Source: Geothrix fuzhouensis (GTDB lineage: Bacteria > Acidobacteriota > Holophagae > Holophagales > Holophagaceae). Taken from it: 64,000 nt of DNA. Where the stretch lies: NCBI RefSeq assembly GCF_024609325.1, contig NZ_JANHMQ010000001.1:868001-932000 (forward strand), in the 5' to 3' direction. Below the pieces are notes generated by a model. It saw nothing but the letters and a program-made list of their open reading frames with translations, did not search any database and was not told the origin of the DNA. The position numbers and the translations under genes are program-made. This document shows positions 8,792-64,000 of the stretch, in pieces (within the stretch, counting starts at the first letter, position 1; every line of letters begins with the position of its first letter).

Positions 8792-8868
8792 CCACCAAGG
8801 ACACGAAGGAACAGACTCGATCTTCCTGTCCTGAGTTGTTCCCTTCGTGTTCTTAGTGGCGCCTTTTT
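8792..8868. repeat. Intergenic imperfect palindrome (accaaggacacgaagg words), terminator-like
   Basis: The left arm 8792-8813 pairs with the right arm 8837-8859 over 22 positions with two mismatches and one extra base, around a 23-base loop. A T run at 8863-8868 follows, so it may end the thiD-like transcript. The arms consist of accaagg/acacgaagg words like those at 53206-53255. Confidence 0.8.
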
Positions 8869-11406: not shown

Positions 11407-11438
11407 TCATCAGGCCCTTCCATCACCTTAGGAAATCA

Positions 11439-11529
11439 GGAACACAGAGTTCACAGAAGCCCACAGAGGCCACAGAGAATTGCTGCTTTTCTCTGTGCCT
11501 CCTGTGGTGCTCTGCGTCCTCTGTGTTCC
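11439..11529. repeat. Intergenic imperfect palindrome (cacagag words), 41-base arms
   Basis: Arms 11439-11479 and 11489-11529 are each 41 bases around a 9-base loop, and both are built from repeated cacagag units. It fills most of the gap between the convergent HerA-like and dus genes and could act as a two-way terminator. Confidence 0.85.
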
Positions 11530-11550
11530 GCTTTTCCGATGAACCAATGG

Positions 11551-18259: not shown

Positions 18260-18301
18260 CTCCAAAACAGAGGGCGCCGAAGGGCGCCCTCTGTTTTGGA
18301 G
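18260..18301. terminator. Bidirectional terminator between helicase and PBP genes
   Basis: A perfect 19-base-pair stem, 18260-18278 with 18283-18301, closes on a four-base loop. Each arm includes a CAAAA/TTTTG block, so either strand presents U or A near the base. It separates two convergent genes. Confidence 0.88.
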
Positions 18302-18316
18302 CGAGTGAAACACGGA

Positions 18317-20800
18317 TCATCCATTCGGATCCGTCGCGTTCAGGTCCACGGGCTTGGGTTCCTCCACCGGCTTGGGACGGCCCCAGACGTGGACCTCCAC
18401 GGGTTGCACTGGGGCCTTGTCGCGAGCTTCCTTCACTTTCTGGATGGCCTCGGCATCGCTGCCCGATTTAGGCGTGGTACCGGGCTTGAAGGCGAGATGG
18501 AGCACCCGGTCGGCAGTCGCCGAGGTAGCCAGCAGGCCCGTGTAGCGGTCGATGTCTGCCCACTCCATGCCCGCGGGAACCTGGAACTCCTCCCGGGGGG
18601 TGGTGGGCAGGGCCACCTTCATGAAATCGATCCAGATGGGCAGGGCCACCTTGGCGCCATCGGCCCCGCGGAAGATGGTCTTCTTCTCGTCGAGTCCCAC
18701 CCACACCCCGCATACCACACGCGTGGAGAAGCCGATGAACCAGGCATCCGTGTGTTCATCCGTGGTCCCGGTCTTGCCTGCGATGGGCCACTGCAATTCC
18801 GCTCCGGCGCGGGCGCCGGTGCCAGCGGTCGCCACGCCCTGGAGGCACTGGATGAGCTGGAAGGTGCTCTGAGGATCCAGTACCTGCTCGGTGGCCGCGC
18901 CGTTGTGGCTCTCCAGGACGCGTCCGTTGCGATCCACCACCTTCTTGATGAAGAAGGGTGGCGGCGACTGAAGGCCGTCGTTGGCAATGGTGGCGTACCC
19001 GCGCACCATCTCCTTGAGGGTCAGATCCGCGGAACCCAGGGCCAGGCTGGGGTACGCCGGAATGCTGCTGGTCAGGCCGCACTTGCGGGCGTAATCAATG
19101 ACGTTGAGCACCCCGGTCTCCTCAAGGGTGCGCACCGCGGGCACATTGCGGGAATCCCGCAGGGCCTCCCAGATGGGAATGGGTCCCCAGAAATCCCGCT
19201 CGTAGTTTTTTGGCTCGTAGGGTTTCGCGCTGCCACGCAGGGGCTTGTATTCCGTGGTGCCATCCGGCTGGGTGACCGTGAGGAAATCCCCGGTGTCGAG
19301 GAACCGGGTCGGAACGTCCAGGACCATGCTGGCGGGCGTCTTTCCGGCGGTGAAGGCCGCGCCGTAGACATAGGCCTTCATGGTCGAACCCACCTGCCGC
19401 TGGGCCTGGGTGGCGCGGTTGAACTTGGAGCGGTTGAAGTCATACCCGCCCACCATGGCGCGGATTTCGCCGGTCTTGGGGTCCACCGCCATGAGGGCGC
19501 CCTCGACCTGGGGCTCCTGATCCAGCTCCACGGTCTTCGGCGTACCGTCGTCCGCGGTCTTCACCATGAAGAGCGGCGCAGCTCCCCTGGGCAACAGCTT
19601 CTGGAGGTCTTTGCCAGCCCACGCGAAGGCGCTTGCCGGCACGTCCAGGGTCGCCTTGGCGATGCGGACCTGGGCCACCCCGCCCTTCCATCCGAGGATC
19701 ACGCCACGAACATTGTCGCCGTTCTCGAAATAGTGCCTCCAGCCGTTGAGCTGGGTGGTCTCGGGATCGGTCACGAACTGCACGGCATCTTTCCGGAAGC
19801 CACGGCGCCGGTCCACGACCCTCAGCCCGGCCTGGACGGCTTCGTTGGCGGCCTCCTGCCAGTAGCTATCCACGGTGGTCGTCACTTCCAGACCGCCGTT
19901 CAGAACCTGCTCGCGGCCGTACTTCTCGTAGAGGTACTTGCGGACTTCCTCCACCACATAGGGAGCCACCGCCTCTTCGCGGGCGTTTTCGCGGGCCAGG
20001 CGGATGGGCTTGTCAACCAGTAGGCTGGCCTCCTGTGGCTTGAGATAGTCCTCCTTCACCATGCGCAGCAGCACGTGGTTGCGCCGGGACTTGGCGGCAG
20101 CACGTGCTTTCGGGTCGGGGTTATAGGGGTTGTACCAGTTCGGATTCTGCACCAGGCCAGCCAAGAGGGCGCACTCCTCCACGTTGAGCTGGGGGGCGCT
20201 CTTCCCGAAATAGAATTCCGCGGCCGCCTCGATGCCGTAGCGGCCCCCACCGAAGTACACCTCGTTGGCGTACATCTCCATGATCTGCTTCTTGGAGTAG
20301 GCCTTCTCCAGCTTGCGGGCGAGGATGATCTCTTTCAGCTTGCGGTCCAGTCGCTTCTGGCGCTTGGCAGTGACGGTGCGGATGAGCTGCATGGTCAGCG
20401 TCGAGGCACCTTCTCGGCGGCGGCCGAAGCTGGTGATGAAATTCACGCCCGAGCGCACGAGGCCCCGGGCCGAGACGCCGCTATGGCCCCAGAAATCCTG
20501 ATCCTCCGTGGCGACCAGGGCATTCACGAAGGCTTTGGGAATGTCGCCGTAGGGGATCACCACCCGGTGCTCCTCGGCGAAGATGCCGATCACGTTGCCG
20601 TCGTGGTCGAGCACCTTGGTGATGGTCTTGGGCACGCGAATCGCGAACATCGTCAGGAAGCTGTCCGCGTCCCGCGACATGATGGACCAGGACACGGCCA
20701 GAGTGGCCGCCCCGACCACTGCCAGGGCCAGGAAGGCCCACAGCGCTCGGCCGAACCACCGGCGTGAAGAAGTGGAGGAGGATGCCTGGGTGGGAGCCAT
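18317..20800 (-). CDS. mrcA: Penicillin-binding protein 1A (bifunctional class A)
   Basis: This 827-residue inner-membrane enzyme polymerises and cross-links peptidoglycan. One membrane segment covers about residues 18-40. The glycosyltransferase domain has the catalytic Glu-99 in ATEDQDFWGHSGVS and REGASTLTMQLIRTV, and VYFGGGRYGIEAAAEFYFGK. The transpeptidase domain has the active serine in RQVGSTMKAYVYG, the SRN triad in RDSRNVPAVR and GKTGTTDEHTDAWFIGF. An OB-like insert lies between the two. The C-terminus is Pro/Lys-rich. It is divergent from nadK with only 28 bases between. Confidence 0.95.
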   Translation of the reverse strand: MAPTQASSSTSSRRWFGRALWAFLALAVVGAATLAVSWSIMSRDADSFLTMFAIRVPKTITKVLDHDGNVIGIFAEEHRVVIPYGDIPKAFVNALVATEDQDFWGHSGVSARGLVRSGVNFITSFGRRREGASTLTMQLIRTVTAKRQKRLDRKLKEIILARKLEKAYSKKQIMEMYANEVYFGGGRYGIEAAAEFYFGKSAPQLNVEECALLAGLVQNPNWYNPYNPDPKARAAAKSRRNHVLLRMVKEDYLKPQEASLLVDKPIRLARENAREEAVAPYVVEEVRKYLYEKYGREQVLNGGLEVTTTVDSYWQEAANEAVQAGLRVVDRRRGFRKDAVQFVTDPETTQLNGWRHYFENGDNVRGVILGWKGGVAQVRIAKATLDVPASAFAWAGKDLQKLLPRGAAPLFMVKTADDGTPKTVELDQEPQVEGALMAVDPKTGEIRAMVGGYDFNRSKFNRATQAQRQVGSTMKAYVYGAAFTAGKTPASMVLDVPTRFLDTGDFLTVTQPDGTTEYKPLRGSAKPYEPKNYERDFWGPIPIWEALRDSRNVPAVRTLEETGVLNVIDYARKCGLTSSIPAYPSLALGSADLTLKEMVRGYATIANDGLQSPPPFFIKKVVDRNGRVLESHNGAATEQVLDPQSTFQLIQCLQGVATAGTGARAGAELQWPIAGKTGTTDEHTDAWFIGFSTRVVCGVWVGLDEKKTIFRGADGAKVALPIWIDFMKVALPTTPREEFQVPAGMEWADIDRYTGLLATSATADRVLHLAFKPGTTPKSGSDAEAIQKVKEARDKAPVQPVEVHVWGRPKPVEEPKPVDLNATDPNG

Positions 20801-20828: not shown

Positions 20829-21707
20829 ATGCCCCAGCGACTGATTCTCGTGGCCAAGATCAAATCCCCGCGCTTGGCTTCCACCCTGCGCGAGGCGCTG
20901 CCTTCTTTCCTTGAGCGGGGCTGGCTCGTGACGAGCGAACCGGCGTTGGCTGAAGCCTGGGCTGAAGCTGGCCTGGACCCTGCCCATCTGGCGCTCGACC
21001 CGGAACTGGGTGTCTCGGGCCCTGTTCCGGACCTGTGCCTGGTGCTCGGAGGCGACGGAACCCTGCTCCACGCCGCCCGGCGCGTGGGCATGCGAGGCAC
21101 CCCCATCCTGGGCATCAACCTCGGCTCCCTGGGATTCCTCACGGCCCATCCCGTCTCTGAGGCCACCAGCGCCGTCCAGGCCTTCCTCGCAGGGACGCTC
21201 GTGGCGGACCGGCGCCCCATGCTGGAGGTGGAACTCTGGCGCGGCAACCGCCTGCTGGCCCAGCAGACAGTGCTGAACGACGCGGTCGTGGCCAAGGGTG
21301 CCCTGGCCCGCATCATGGACATGCATCTGCGGGTGGGCGACCAGGACGCAGGACCCATCAAGGCGGACGGACTCATCGTGGCGACGCCCACCGGGTCCAC
21401 CGCCTATTCCCTGTCGGCAGGTGGCCCCATCCTGCATCCCAGCCTCGAAGCCTTCGTCATCGCCCCCATCTGCCCCCACACCCTGACGCTCCGACCGTCC
21501 GTGGTGCCCGCCTCCCAGCCCATCTCGATCACCTTGGAAGAAGCCGAGGACGCCCACCTCACCCTGGACGGCCAGGTCGGCTACCAGCTGCTGCCCGGTG
21601 ACGAAGTCCGGCTGCGCCAGGCCCAGACCCGCATCACCCTGCTCCAGCGACCCGGCCTCGACTTCTTCGCCTTGCTACAGCAGAAGCTGCATTGGGGCGA
21701 TCGGTAG
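20829..21707 (+). CDS. nadK: NAD kinase
   Basis: The 292-residue enzyme makes NADP from NAD and ATP. The signature GGDGTLLHAARRVG is near residue 73, followed by GINLGSLGFLTAHP, the NDAVV metal/NAD motif and KADGLIVATPTGSTAYSLSA. Length and order match bacterial NadK. It is read away from the PBP1A gene from a very short shared upstream region. Confidence 0.95.
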   Translation: MPQRLILVAKIKSPRLASTLREALPSFLERGWLVTSEPALAEAWAEAGLDPAHLALDPELGVSGPVPDLCLVLGGDGTLLHAARRVGMRGTPILGINLGSLGFLTAHPVSEATSAVQAFLAGTLVADRRPMLEVELWRGNRLLAQQTVLNDAVVAKGALARIMDMHLRVGDQDAGPIKADGLIVATPTGSTAYSLSAGGPILHPSLEAFVIAPICPHTLTLRPSVVPASQPISITLEEAEDAHLTLDGQVGYQLLPGDEVRLRQAQTRITLLQRPGLDFFALLQQKLHWGDR

Positions 21708-22030
21708 GATTCAGGCTGGAGATTGGAGGCTGGAGCTACGGCTCTCTGGGCGGCCCTGCGGACCGCACCAGGCTTTTCCCGTTGGGCCGGCCGGGTGGGT
21801 CAGCCCCGCACTGGGCTATCAGGCGCGCCGCATGGCGGCGCAGCAGGAAGCAGTACCTCCAGACTCCAGCCTTCTGTCCGGTCTGTCCGCCGCAGACCGC
21901 CCCGCCCCCTTGCCATTCCCGACCATCTGGTCGGCGGCAGTCTGCGCTGCGGCCCGCTTGTGACCACGCGCACATGGGGTGGGCATGACACTTCCACCTA
22001 GTAGGACCTGTGTCCCTGCATGGAGTCTCC
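21708..22030. other. Non-coding gap between nadK and the 2-oxoacid oxidoreductase operon
   Basis: This 323-base stretch has open frames but none with a plausible protein or RBS. It contains a widely separated inverted repeat: 21714-21729 is complementary to 21856-21871 at 14 of 16 positions (ggctggag/ggagg words). The region between is G+C-rich with several short complementary blocks. The downstream gene has GGAG at 22022-22025 before its ATG. I see no clear promoter. Confidence 0.5.
21714..21871. repeat. Wide inverted repeat of ggctggag words
   Basis: GGCTGGAGATTGGAGG (21714-21729) is matched by CCTCCAGACTCCAGCC (21856-21871), 14 of 16 complementary, with 126 bases between. The left side continues with another copy of GGCTGGAG at 21728-21735. 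Confidence 0.65.
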
Positions 22031-24885: not shown

Positions 24886-25149
24886 ATGACGGATATCGCC
24901 ATCCAGACCACCCTCAGCGCCGAGGAATGGAAGATTGTCATGGCCCTCCGGGAGATCCCGGACAGCCCGCTCCGTGCCAAGGTCTCCGGCCTCTTCGAAG
25001 ACCTGGTGCGCTTCATCCAGCAGCCCCGGTGCCTGGGGATGCAGAGCGACGGCTTCCCCTGCGGCAGCCCCCACACCAGCTGCGAGGAATGTCAGCACAT
25101 GCTGAACGTCCTCGATGAGCTGGCGGCTCGGGTGCCTGTTCAGGACTGA
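24886..25149 (+). CDS. Small Cys-rich protein downstream of the oxidoreductase
   Basis: The 87-residue protein follows with a 27-base gap and an AGGAGG-type RBS. It is helical in its first half (LSAEEWKIVMALREIPD), then carries Cys-49, Cys-59, Cys-66 and Cys-69 with His-63 and His-71 in CGSPHTSCEECQH. This is a possible zinc or FeS site. I do not know the family. Position suggests it is co-transcribed with the oxidoreductase genes, perhaps as a maturation or electron-transfer accessory. Confidence 0.72.
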   Translation: MTDIAIQTTLSAEEWKIVMALREIPDSPLRAKVSGLFEDLVRFIQQPRCLGMQSDGFPCGSPHTSCEECQHMLNVLDELAARVPVQD

Positions 25150-25166
25150 ATTCAGACGGGAAAACG

Positions 25167-25259
25167 GGGACAGGATTAACAGGATGAACTGAAGGATTAA
25201 CAGGATTTCAAAAGCACTAATCCTGTTAATCCAGCCTTCAATCCTGTTAATCCTGTCCC
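25167..25259. repeat. Intergenic imperfect palindrome (ggattaacagg words), 41-base arms
   Basis: Arms 25167-25207 and 25219-25259 are each 41 bases around an 11-base loop. Ends match perfectly for 19 and 13 bases with a mismatched middle. The repeated word is ggattaacagg, each arm carrying two copies. It separates the convergent small Cys-rich gene and truB. Confidence 0.88.
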
Positions 25260-25274
25260 AGCAGTTGCGCCTCG

Positions 25275-26183
25275 CTACAGGCCGCCCCGCAGGTTCGCGA
25301 AAGTCCTCAGCCCTGCTTCGGTGGGCTTGAGCAGGGCCACGAGGCGGCCGCCGTGGATGGCCCGAAGGGGCGCGCCGGGGTCGGGGAAGCCCTCGGGCAT
25401 GGCCCAAGTGGCAGGTCGGGCTTCGCCCGTGGGGATGGCGCGGCCGTGGGCCAGGTGATCCGCTTCTTCATCCGAGAGCAGGCGCGCCGGGCACCACGGC
25501 AGCAGGTCCGCACCAGTGAGCAGGCGCTCCGAGCCCTCGCCTGGATCGACCCAGGGCCCGATGGCGGTGCGGCGGAGGGCCGTGAGGTGGGCACCGTAGC
25601 CCATCGCCCGACCCAGGTCTCGGGCCAGGCTGCGCACGTAGAAGCCGCCCCGGCAGGTGAGTTCCAGGGTGCTGCGCTGAGGTCGACCGTGGGTGAGATC
25701 GTGGGCGATCCAGCGGGCGGAGAGCAGGAAGACACGGCAGGGCTTCATCACGACTTCTTCGCCACGGTGGGCCTTCTTGTAGGCTGCCTCACCGTCGATC
25801 TTCTTGGCGCTGGTGGCGGGGGGCACCTGGTCCGTCCAGCCCAGAAAGGGTGCCAGGGCGGCATCCAGGGCTTCCGGCGTCAAGCCCGTGGAAAAAGCCT
25901 CGGAAACCGGCTTGCCGTGCAGGTCGCAGGTATCGGTTTCCACGCCCCAGGCGACCTCGGCCACGTAGGTCTTCGGCAGCGGATGCATCAATTCCATCAG
26001 CCGTGTGGCCTGGCCCGCCAGCACCAGCAGCAGGCCGTCTGCAAAGGGGTCCAGTGTGCCGCCATGGCCCAGGGCCAGCTTCTTCTGCCCTGCCTCGAAG
26101 GCCCGGCGCTTGAAGCCGCGGATCACGTCAAAGCTGCTCTGGCCCACGGCCTTGTGGACGAGGTGGATGCCGGATTCAACCAT
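25275..26183 (-). CDS. truB: tRNA pseudouridine(55) synthase TruB
   Basis: The 302-residue enzyme makes pseudouridine 55 of tRNAs. Motifs are HLVHKAVGQSSFDVIRGFKR, LGHGGTLDPFADGLLLVLAG (catalytic Asp), KTYVAEVAWGVETDTCD and GFYVRSLARDLGRAMGYG. The gene starts directly after the rbfA stop with no intervening base, so the two form an operon, a common pairing in bacteria. Confidence 0.95.
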   Translation of the reverse strand: MVESGIHLVHKAVGQSSFDVIRGFKRRAFEAGQKKLALGHGGTLDPFADGLLLVLAGQATRLMELMHPLPKTYVAEVAWGVETDTCDLHGKPVSEAFSTGLTPEALDAALAPFLGWTDQVPPATSAKKIDGEAAYKKAHRGEEVVMKPCRVFLLSARWIAHDLTHGRPQRSTLELTCRGGFYVRSLARDLGRAMGYGAHLTALRRTAIGPWVDPGEGSERLLTGADLLPWCPARLLSDEEADHLAHGRAIPTGEARPATWAMPEGFPDPGAPLRAIHGGRLVALLKPTEAGLRTFANLRGGL

Positions 26184-53170: not shown

Positions 53171-53205
53171 GCCTGGTCAGTCCCTGCGAAGGACAACCGA
53201 TCACC

Positions 53206-53255
53206 GCCAAGACACCAAGGAAAGACGGATCCCATGCCTGTCTTGGCAGCTTGGC
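53206..53255. repeat. Intergenic imperfect palindrome (gccaagacaccaagg words)
   Basis: Left arm 53206-53219 pairs with 53242-53255 at 12 of 14 positions. The words resemble the 8792 locus. It lies inside the DUF350-speE gap, in an operon-like run. Confidence 0.7.
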
Positions 53256-53292
53256 GCCTTGACGATGAGTCCCTTCTCCGTGGACCTCAAGC

Positions 53293-54825
53293 ATGCCTGA
53301 ATCTTTGGAATCACCCACGCCCACGCTGAAGGCGCCGCTGCTGTTCATCAGCGTGCTGCTCATCGCCAGCTGTGGGCTGATCTACGAATTGGTGGCCGGC
53401 ACCTTGTCGAGCTACCTGCTGGGCGACTCGGTCATGCAGTTCTCCACGGTGATCGGGGTGTACCTCAGCGCCATGGGCCTGGGGTCGTACCTCTCGAAGT
53501 TCATCCAGCGGGGCCTGGCGCGGCGCTTCGTGGATCTGGAACTGGGCGTGGCCCTGGTAGGCGGCTTTTCGGCACCCATTCTCTTCCAGGCCTTCGCCCA
53601 CACCCACGCTTTCCGGGTGGTGCTGTACGGCGTGGTGATGGCGGTGGGCACGCTGGTGGGCCTGGAGATCCCCATTCTCATGCGCATCCTCAAGAACCAG
53701 GTGCGCTTCAAGGACCTCATCGCAGGCGTGCTCACCCTCGACTACATGGGCGCCCTCTTCGCCTCCATCCTCTTTCCCCTGCTCTTCATGCCCAAGCTGG
53801 GCCTGGTGCGCACCAGCCTCCTCTTCGGCCTGCTGAACGCCACCGTGGGCCTGTGGTGCACCTACCTGCTGGCCTCGCAGCTGGGTCCCACCCGACTGAT
53901 CCGGCTGCGCTGCCTCGCCGTCATGGCCCTGCTGGCCGTGGGCCTGGTGTTCGCGGGAAAATTCACACTGGTACTGGAAGAGGAAGTCTTCGCCGACGAG
54001 ATCGTCTACGCCAAGGACAGCCCCTACCAGCGCATCGTGCTCACCCGGGGCCGGGGCAGCTTCCAGCTCTTCCTCAACGGCAACCTGCAGTTCTCGTCCG
54101 CGGATGAATACCGCTACCACGAAGCGCTGGTGCACCCCGCCTTCTCTCTGCGACCGGACGCGAAGCGTGTGCTCATCTGTGGTGGCGGCGACGGGCTTGC
54201 CGTGCGCGAGGTACTGAAGCACGCCTCGGTCCAGGAGATCGTTTTGGTGGATCTGGATCCGGCCATGACCGACATGGCCCTACGCCAACCCATGGTGCGC
54301 GAGCTCAACGGTGCAGCCCTGGAAGATCCCCGCGTGAAGGTGATCAACGCCGACGCCATGGTCTGGCTCCAGGAAACCACGGGCCCGCCCTTTGACATCG
54401 CCTTCGTGGACTTCCCCGACCCCAACACCTACGCCTTGGGGAAGCTCTACACGTCCCGCTTTTACCGTTTGCTCCAGCGCCGTCTCACCGACGATGCCAT
54501 GGTTGCTGTGCAGAGCACCTCGCCCCTCATGGCGCGGGAATCCTTCTGGTGCATCGCGACCACCATGGAGGCCGCAGGCTTCAAGGTGCATCCCTACCAC
54601 CTGGCCGTGCCCTCCTTCGGCGTCTGGGGCTTCGCCCTGGCCTCGAAGCGTGATTTCGCCATCCCCACGCACGTGCTGCCGGGGCTGCGCCACCTGTCGG
54701 ATGAGGCCACCGCCGCCATGTTCGCCTTCCCAAGGGACATGGACCGTGTGCCAACAGAAGTGAACCGTCTCGACAACCAGGTGCTCGTTCACCTCTACGC
54801 CCGGGAGTGGCGGCGGTGGTCGTGA
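53293..54825 (+). CDS. speE: Membrane-anchored spermidine synthase-like aminopropyltransferase
   Basis: The 510-residue protein has an N-terminal membrane part with about six or seven helices (VLLIASCGLIYELVAGTLSS, YLSAMGLGSYLSKFIQ, VVLYGVVMAVGTLVGLEIP, others) and a C-terminal aminopropyltransferase domain from about residue 230. That part has the SAM-binding stretch CGGGDGLAVREVLKHASVQE, VDLDPAMTDMALRQPM and PFDIAFVDFPDPNTYALGK with the family Asp pair. Spermidine synthases transfer an aminopropyl group from decarboxylated SAM to putrescine. No speD is in the window. Substrate at the membrane is unknown. Confidence 0.87.
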   Translation: MPESLESPTPTLKAPLLFISVLLIASCGLIYELVAGTLSSYLLGDSVMQFSTVIGVYLSAMGLGSYLSKFIQRGLARRFVDLELGVALVGGFSAPILFQAFAHTHAFRVVLYGVVMAVGTLVGLEIPILMRILKNQVRFKDLIAGVLTLDYMGALFASILFPLLFMPKLGLVRTSLLFGLLNATVGLWCTYLLASQLGPTRLIRLRCLAVMALLAVGLVFAGKFTLVLEEEVFADEIVYAKDSPYQRIVLTRGRGSFQLFLNGNLQFSSADEYRYHEALVHPAFSLRPDAKRVLICGGGDGLAVREVLKHASVQEIVLVDLDPAMTDMALRQPMVRELNGAALEDPRVKVINADAMVWLQETTGPPFDIAFVDFPDPNTYALGKLYTSRFYRLLQRRLTDDAMVAVQSTSPLMARESFWCIATTMEAAGFKVHPYHLAVPSFGVWGFALASKRDFAIPTHVLPGLRHLSDEATAAMFAFPRDMDRVPTEVNRLDNQVLVHLYAREWRRWS

Positions 54826-54833
54826 GAAATGGG

Positions 54834-54895
54834 AACCGCAGATGACGCAGATGGAAAAACAAGCCCTTTTGCTTTATCTGAGGCCATCTGCGGTT
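54834..54895. repeat. Intergenic palindrome (ccgcagatgacgcagat words)
   Basis: AACCGCAGATG (54834-54844) pairs perfectly with CATCTGCGGTT (54885-54895), with a second weaker inner block. The first 19 bases are the same as those found inversely at 63705-63723. Confidence 0.8.
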
Positions 54896-54939
54896 TCAAA
54901 TCCTCTTTCTTTCCTGCGCGCTCGCCCCAAGGCCCATTC

Positions 54940-63164: not shown

Positions 63165-63611
63165 CTACCGGGCCCACTCCAGGGAATCGCGCTTGGCTGT
63201 GTAGTGGGCTCCCAATTCCAGCGCGATGGCTCGTTCGCAAAGCTCCAGCGCCGCATGGAAGTCCCCCAGCTCGCTGTGGGCCTGGATGCCCCGCTCGAAG
63301 CAGGTCAGGCCCTCCAGCAGCCGCCGGTACTCGTGGGGGAAGGCCGCTTCGAGATCGCCCAGATACCCGAGCACTGACGCCACGGAGCCGGCGCACTCTT
63401 CCCACAATCCGCATTGTGCCTGGGCCTCCGCCATCAGATCGTAGGCGATGGCCTTCACGGCGTTCGGCAGGCTGGCCTGCCCTTCGAACGTGCGGCGCAG
63501 GTACTTCAGGGCGGATTCCGGTCCGCTGAAGGCCGCCTCGCGGTGCCCCGCCAACAGATCCTCGAGGACATCCTTCACCGACTTGCGGACGGGTTCCTGT
63601 CGCTTCGCCAT
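63165..63611 (-). CDS. TPR-like protein of unknown function
   Basis: The 148-residue protein begins MAKRQEPVRKSVKDVLEDLL and is mostly helical, with paired helices near FPHEYRRLLEGLTCFERGIQ and DFHAALELCERAIALELG, the latter resembling a single TPR. No signal peptide or catalytic motif is visible. The next gene upstream is guaA across a palindromic repeat. Confidence 0.65.
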   Translation of the reverse strand: MAKRQEPVRKSVKDVLEDLLAGHREAAFSGPESALKYLRRTFEGQASLPNAVKAIAYDLMAEAQAQCGLWEECAGSVASVLGYLGDLEAAFPHEYRRLLEGLTCFERGIQAHSELGDFHAALELCERAIALELGAHYTAKRDSLEWAR

Positions 63612-63641
63612 TGAAACCTGTAAAGAAAAGAACGTTTTTGA

Positions 63642-63723
63642 AACCGGAGATCTCGCAGATGGGCGCAGATAAACCCCTGCACCATGTCCTCCCCCAGCTG
63701 CGCAATCTGCGTCATCTGCGGTT
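63642..63723. repeat. Intergenic imperfect palindrome (cgcagat words)
   Basis: Left arm 63642-63670 pairs with right arm 63696-63723 over about 28 positions with a few mismatches. The right arm, read on the minus strand, starts with the same 19 bases as the locus at 54834. It lies just after guaA. Confidence 0.8.
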
Positions 63724-63728
63724 AATAC

Positions 63729-64000
63729 TCATTCGTATTCAATCGTGGCGGGCGGTTTCGAGGTGATGTCGTAGACCACGCGGTTGATGCCCTTGACCTC
63801 GCGGACAATGCGCTGGGCGATCTTCTCCAGCAGCTCGTGGGGCAGGCGGGCCCAATCGGCGGTCATGAAGTCTTCGCTGGTCACGGCCCGGAGCGCGCAC
63901 ATCCACTCGAAGGTGCGCTCATCGCCCATGATGCCCACGGTCTGGACCGGCAGCAGCACAGCAAAAGCCTGGCTGGTCTTGCGGTACCAGCCGCTGTCCT
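63729..64000 (-). CDS. guaA: GMP synthase (glutamine-hydrolysing), 3' end (partial)
   Basis: About 90 codons lie in the window, beginning beyond base 64000. They have [59 protein letters not shown] and the end KPPATIEYE, the dimerisation domain of GuaA. The enzyme amidates XMP to GMP. The end of the gene is normal for the family. Confidence 0.95.

Follow-up and report, generated by a model that had tools for sequence, protein, structure and literature searches.

The closest described counterparts of the palindrome studied here are the REPINs and their RAYT transposases. RAYTs are single-copy and are predicted to act on REPINs in trans (PMC3116915), and groups of TnpA-REP co-evolve with their REPs (PMC8266576). 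Two other known groups share some of its features. Bacterial MITEs (ERIC, NEMIS and others) are, like it, short, non-coding, intergenic and insertion-polymorphic and carry terminal inverted repeats, and the intervening sequences of 23S rRNA with IVP (S23) hold a small ORF in the loop of a long stem, as do gene-bearing relatives of our palindrome. The gene in those relatives belongs to the GxxExxY family (TIGR04256 / PF13366), which is annotated only as a nuclease-superfamily protein. The palindrome belongs to a large and apparently undescribed class of bacterial repeats, of which it is one solo copy, and is probably a tiny DNA parasite that this nuclease copies.

Unit phasing in a palindrome between convergent genes

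We analysed a window of 64 kb (G000:C1:868001-932000, from a genome of 3.3 Mb whose assembly is 97% complete). A preliminary description had reported a palindrome with 41-base arms between convergent genes; it was located exactly at 25167-25259, with arms of 41 nt and convergent ORFs on its two sides (Table 1). The arms are 85% complementary. Folding of 25150-25276 gave z = -9.3 (DNA) and -8.9 (RNA), and 0 of 200 shuffles folded equally well. Each arm consists of two pairs of CAGGAT-type units, an outer pair GACAGGATTAACAGGAT and an inner pair AGGATTAACAGGATT, with CAGGAT units spaced 9 bp apart, then a short linker, then the second pair. The reported agreement of the arm ends and divergence of their centre is borne out by this anatomy, as the unit pairs are kept and the linker of ~5 nt is free. 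Read on the minus strand, the conserved outer tip presents the stem followed by CGTTTTC, resembling an intrinsic terminator for the truB-side transcript; the right tip carries no T run. A terminator scan gave no match at 25167-25259 because it takes loops of at most 8 nt. No match at Rfam gathering score was found in the 64-kb window.

Table 1. Features of the palindrome at 25167-25259, its neighbours and other palindromes of the window (window coordinates).
Feature	Position	Strand	Remarks
Left arm	25167..25207	+	CAGGAT units 25171-25176, 25180-25185, 25201-25206; short AGGAT unit 25193-25197
Loop	25208..25218	.	11 nt; sequence free among relatives
Right arm	25219..25259	-	inverted copy of left arm
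Conserved outer tip	25160..25168	+	GAAAACGGG (family consensus GAAAAGCGGG); conserved to -9/-10 in 38 elements
Flanking 87-aa ORF	24886..25149	+	ends 17 nt before left arm; same neighbour in L179, L180, L198
Flanking truB-like ORF	25275..26183	-	from its sequence, presumably tRNA pseudouridine synthase B
Palindrome, ACAGAG unit type (cacagag element)	11431..11537	.	absent at G013 orthologous site; unit as in GxxExxY element L035
Palindrome, same class, ACGAAG unit type	8792..8859	.	absent in G013
Insertion with RCCAAG-type palindrome (CCGCCAAGACACCAAGG...)	53176..53323	.	absent in G013
Palindrome, GCAGAT unit type (ACCGCAGATGACGCAGATG)	54824..54905	.	absent in G012 and G013
Insertion with GCAGAT-type palindrome	63610..63731	.	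absent in G012 and G013

The preliminary description also held that the arms equal in length those of the cacagag element, that the two sequences are unrelated, and that this points to a common size rule near 41. The same tool assigns the cacagag element arms of 49 nt (76% complementary, 11431-11479 / 11489-11537), so the equality does not hold. Nor are the two palindromes wholly unrelated, because both have a GGAAAAGC/GCTTTTCC-like end tip and ~9-bp phased units in the same general form. Among 38 non-redundant, gene-less ggattaacagg elements of the genus (hereafter solos), the core measures 75-134 bp (median 98), and the length of the palindrome at 25167-25259 does not stand out as a peak. 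The proposed survey of arm lengths gave a broad spread, from ~13 to 74 with overlapping sub-pairs included. Lengths being broadly distributed among ggattaacagg elements, we rejected an arm-length rule near 41.

The constraint lies instead in the spacing of the units, which is 9 bp, with pairs 19-21 bp apart: the two 13-mers of an arm in the 38 solos were separated by 21 bp in 44/71 cases and by 19 bp in 16/71. Conservation in the solos reaches outwards to GAAAAGCGGG|GACAGG and ends there. The rule is therefore one of helical-scale unit phasing rather than of arm length. The earlier suggestion of a copying mechanism or a protein footprint stands in this other form, in that unit sequence and spacing are constrained and follow the cognate nuclease gene; it does not stand for arm length.

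GxxExxY nuclease genes inside the repeats

The genome holds 29 sites of GGATTAACAGGAT and 0 of the reversed pattern; the sites occur in direct pairs at a distance of ~21 bp or in inverted pairs. A generic palindrome detector, too strict for genome-wide counts, returned 12 or 16 matches in ~1.2 Mb and 0 in controls. One inverted pair, ~450 bp apart (C1:1295355/1295831, L032), encloses a frame of 137 aa that scored 135 bits against TIGR04256 (cut-off 35) and 132 bits against PF13366 (cut-off 22). The cognate gene of the ggattaacagg repeat is a full GxxExxY member (TIGR04256 / PF13366 PDDEXK_3). That every inverted-repeat spacing of ~440 bp marks a GxxExxY gene was considered and rejected: it holds for C1:1295355 and is wrong for C1:747903 and C4:134458, which contain a non-coding, MITE-like insert with ends TTATCGGCGA...

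All 6 GxxExxY genes of the genome lie between inverted repeats that share one general design, with clear phased units in 5. The flanking repeat is of the ggattaacagg family at L032, cacagag at L035, CACCGAT at L030 and L031, GCGGAG at L033, and degenerate and ATCACTG-like at L034. We extended the sample by 80 loci from GTDB genomes (many bacterial phyla and archaea) and by 30 more from a class survey. An inverted-repeat score of at least 14 was reached at 98 of the 105 usable GxxExxY loci, compared with 3 of 96 other ORFs taken from those loci, and at least two equal units in both arms at 71/105 versus 2/96 (Fisher p 2e-25). Likewise, the median score was 22 for true flank pairs and 9 for left and right flanks taken from different loci. 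The units follow a general form R-C-x-y-A-K (or CAGGAT), most often three per arm and at a spacing of 9; for spacings up to 40, 206/290 fall in 8-11. Together these results make the link between GxxExxY genes and the repeats well supported. The GxxExxY proteins of L085 and L126 (annotated Geothrix contig and genus set) are identical. In the literature searched, mostly open papers, we found no report linking GxxExxY to flanking repeats or to a function, none of transposition or cleavage involving GxxExxY or the repeat, and the repeat strings were not found in this sense.

GxxExxY is a single-domain PD-(D/E)XK nuclease of about 120-135 aa. Its active-site D...ExK is preserved: D, E and K are invariant in A1, and in A2 D64 and E74 are invariant and K76 nearly so. 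No relative in the PDB was found by sequence. A model of the close homologue L037 (pLDDT 95.8) has as its best PDB match SSO0001 (Foldseek E 8e-5, VIA Z 10.6), which we take to be a Cas4-type PD-(D/E)XK nuclease; matches to other restriction-enzyme-like folds, among them the Holliday-junction resolvase Hjc (Z 7.3), fall in the range that common arrangements give. The model supports a predicted role as a DNA-cutting enzyme, with no particular reaction implied, and such a fold is by itself no evidence on transposition.

We then compared units with nucleases on a protein tree that covers 115 loci (84 with a typed unit) and in which many forks are unresolved; the typing rules were fixed after the data had been seen, and 31/116 loci were left untyped. 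On this tree we counted 28 changes of unit type, versus a shuffled mean of 56 (minimum 51). The last base of the unit, T or G, changes twice, versus a shuffled mean of 25 (minimum 17), and one of the two changes is at L092, a locus without a good inverted repeat. Phylum labels change 44 times versus 52 when shuffled; the nuclease tree is therefore not a species tree, and the unit pattern does not reflect host taxonomy. The proteins of the T-type and G-type clades show sharp differences at several alignment columns, many of which lie in the C-terminal stretch.

Copy number follows the nuclease as well. Across the genus, with kinship ignored in all p values, GGATTAACAGGAT has a median of 19 copies in the 10 genomes with the cognate nuclease type and 0 in the 37 without it (p 4e-5). 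The independent CACGGAG family shows the same pattern with its own nuclease type (median 26 vs 0, p 2e-5), and the crossed pairings of family and nuclease gave p 0.55 and 0.019. Counter to this pattern, eight genomes in which no cognate nuclease was detected have at least five ggattaacagg copies, for example 35 in G036 and 11 in the near-complete G013.

A nuclease that follows its repeat this closely might also be a host or defence enzyme that restrains or repairs cruciform palindromes, co-evolving as controller of solos spread by another agent. Its nuclease-repeat specificity would look identical, and a PD-(D/E)XK fold near Cas4, and more weakly near the Hjc match, would suit such a role. Nevertheless, the gene itself lies within the repeat, PADLOC and PHROG gave no match for GxxExxY as a defence or phage family, and genomes with the gene have more copies rather than fewer. 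We consider this reading very improbable.

Solo copies and their proposed mobility

Rather likely, in our judgement, 25167-25259 is a non-autonomous palindrome of REPIN-like kind that the GxxExxY nuclease mobilises in trans, the mobilisation step being one that we infer. The gene-bearing form encloses the GxxExxY gene, and the solo would be the gene-less form of the same repeat. The nuclease would recognise the phased units in the arms, most likely on an extruded hairpin (single-stranded at the fork) or on a cruciform, and may cut at the palindrome, so that solo copies are mobilised in trans, as has been proposed for RAYTs and REPINs. A benefit to the host, if any, is likewise conjectural.

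The distribution of the family is informative on this point. In all nine intact copies its cognate nuclease gene occupies one orthologous locus, and the solos are scattered. At the site of 25167-25259, G013 has the same palindrome, G034 carries one from a different family, and in G020 there is just a plain GC hairpin; several repeat families replace each other at one site (L175, L180, L198). Five other palindromes of the window each have no counterpart at the corresponding position in one sister genome or in both; where both are without the element, it would be simpler to assume an insertion than a precise loss. Against mobilisation, we saw no recent burst of identical solos and no clear target-site duplication at the filled and empty pairs, and the loops of the solos have diverged.

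Solos could also be deletion remnants of gene-bearing elements that move in cis, left behind by recombination or decay in the manner of solo LTRs. Gene-bearing and solo forms do have their arms in common, and decayed half copies occur, for example in G013 at the C1:747882 site. However, the only gene-bearing form of the family found in the genus is at that single locus, vertically inherited in nine genomes that each have many solos, and the remnant reading would need multiple full insertions, all of which lost the gene. We regard it as unlikely.

The short, non-coding palindromes with their terminal inverted repeats and insertion polymorphism would also agree with ordinary MITEs of a classical DDE transposon. 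This we judge highly improbable: no consistent target-site duplication was seen at the filled and empty pairs inspected by eye, the arms are built of phased units instead of one fixed terminal inverted repeat, and the protein between the arms is GxxExxY, not a DDE transposase. Bacterial MITEs as a group differ from our elements in the same respects.

Finally, the palindromes might be bidirectional terminators or mRNA-stability hairpins selected by the host, beside which GxxExxY genes merely land. Their tips, AAAAGC/GCTTTT, are conserved, many copies end in GC-TTTT, and a TTTT lies at most 16 nt from the right end in 26/38 solos versus 0.7% of the background. Furthermore, of 24 intergenic solos, 11 are flanked by convergent ORFs and only 1 by divergent ones, against 25/114 and 27/114 in the background. 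Yet such a role predicts neither that unit types track nuclease clades across phyla nor that one family replaces another at the same site, and as a full account we find it quite improbable. Termination may accompany the same element as a side effect; by itself it does not account for the nuclease link. For a palindrome mobilised by the nuclease, GCTTTT tips would make many copies terminator-like and so may allow harmless survival beside stop codons and between convergent genes.

Several other inserts were seen. A non-coding insert of ~400 bp recurs outside the window (C1:747882-748378, L002; the C1:1283178 region; C1:859937-860479; C4:134458-134910, L026), and has ends TTATCGGCGAATCTCAGCC / GGCTGAGGCTCGCCGATAA; in two cases a ggattaacagg palindrome carries it in its loop, and the insert looks like an independent MITE that has nested in these elements. 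Two similar inserts of ~290 bp (C1:957199-957486 and C1:974585-974906), ~25-43 kb beyond the right end of the window, have terminal inverted repeats GGGYCTGYTTTCAAAGTGG / CCACTTTGAAARCAGRCCC, are absent in the sister genomes and belong to a different mobile family. Within the window, an insert of 170 bp at 21707-21877, bounded by AGGCTGGAGATTGGAGG / CCTCCAGACTCCAGCCT, is absent in both sister genomes, and its units do not fit the R-C-x-y-A-K form. A perfect 19-bp inverted repeat with a 4-nt loop (CTCCAAAACAGAGGGCGCC) at 18260-18301, just past the end of a penicillin-binding-protein-like ORF (18317-20800, minus strand), is probably a terminator.

Relation to known systems

Repeat strings of this kind recur in the genomes of many phyla, and the link offers them a candidate agent. 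It also offers GxxExxY a candidate substrate whose specificity, for T-type or G-type units, can be tested directly. G072, from the same family, carries at least 42 GxxExxY genes in its 4.5 Mb versus 0-10 in the family's other listed genomes, and would be a good place to look for active spread.

Unlike the intervening sequences of 23S rRNA, the elements enclose a different protein and do not lie in rRNA; no IVP/S23 gene (PF05635) was found as cargo in the genome, a search that gave no hit in any control genome either. A search for Y1_Tnp/RAYT (PF01797) found none in the genome (97% complete) and was positive in 5 control genomes. Lacking a RAYT/Y1 transposase, the genome does not harbour the known REPIN/RAYT system.

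Like that system, ours comprises short intergenic palindromes with conserved arms, a free loop and many dispersed copies; the same palindrome flanks a cognate nuclease gene, which is inherited vertically at a single locus and co-evolves with the repeat. In contrast, the nuclease is PD-(D/E)XK here and HUH/Y1 there, and the arms are 9-bp phased units here and a GTAG-type head with a single palindrome there. More broadly, and with confidence just short of an even call, we suggest that these may be unnamed pan-prokaryotic selfish repeats, in which GxxExxY reads a six-base code, phased at 9 bp, from the arms of hairpins and acts in trans to copy palindromes that lack the gene, the nuclease clade setting the code, as a second, independently evolved REPIN-like system. 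If so, symbiosis of the REPIN kind, in which a domesticated nuclease is paired with short palindromes, would have evolved more than once, with unrelated enzymes.
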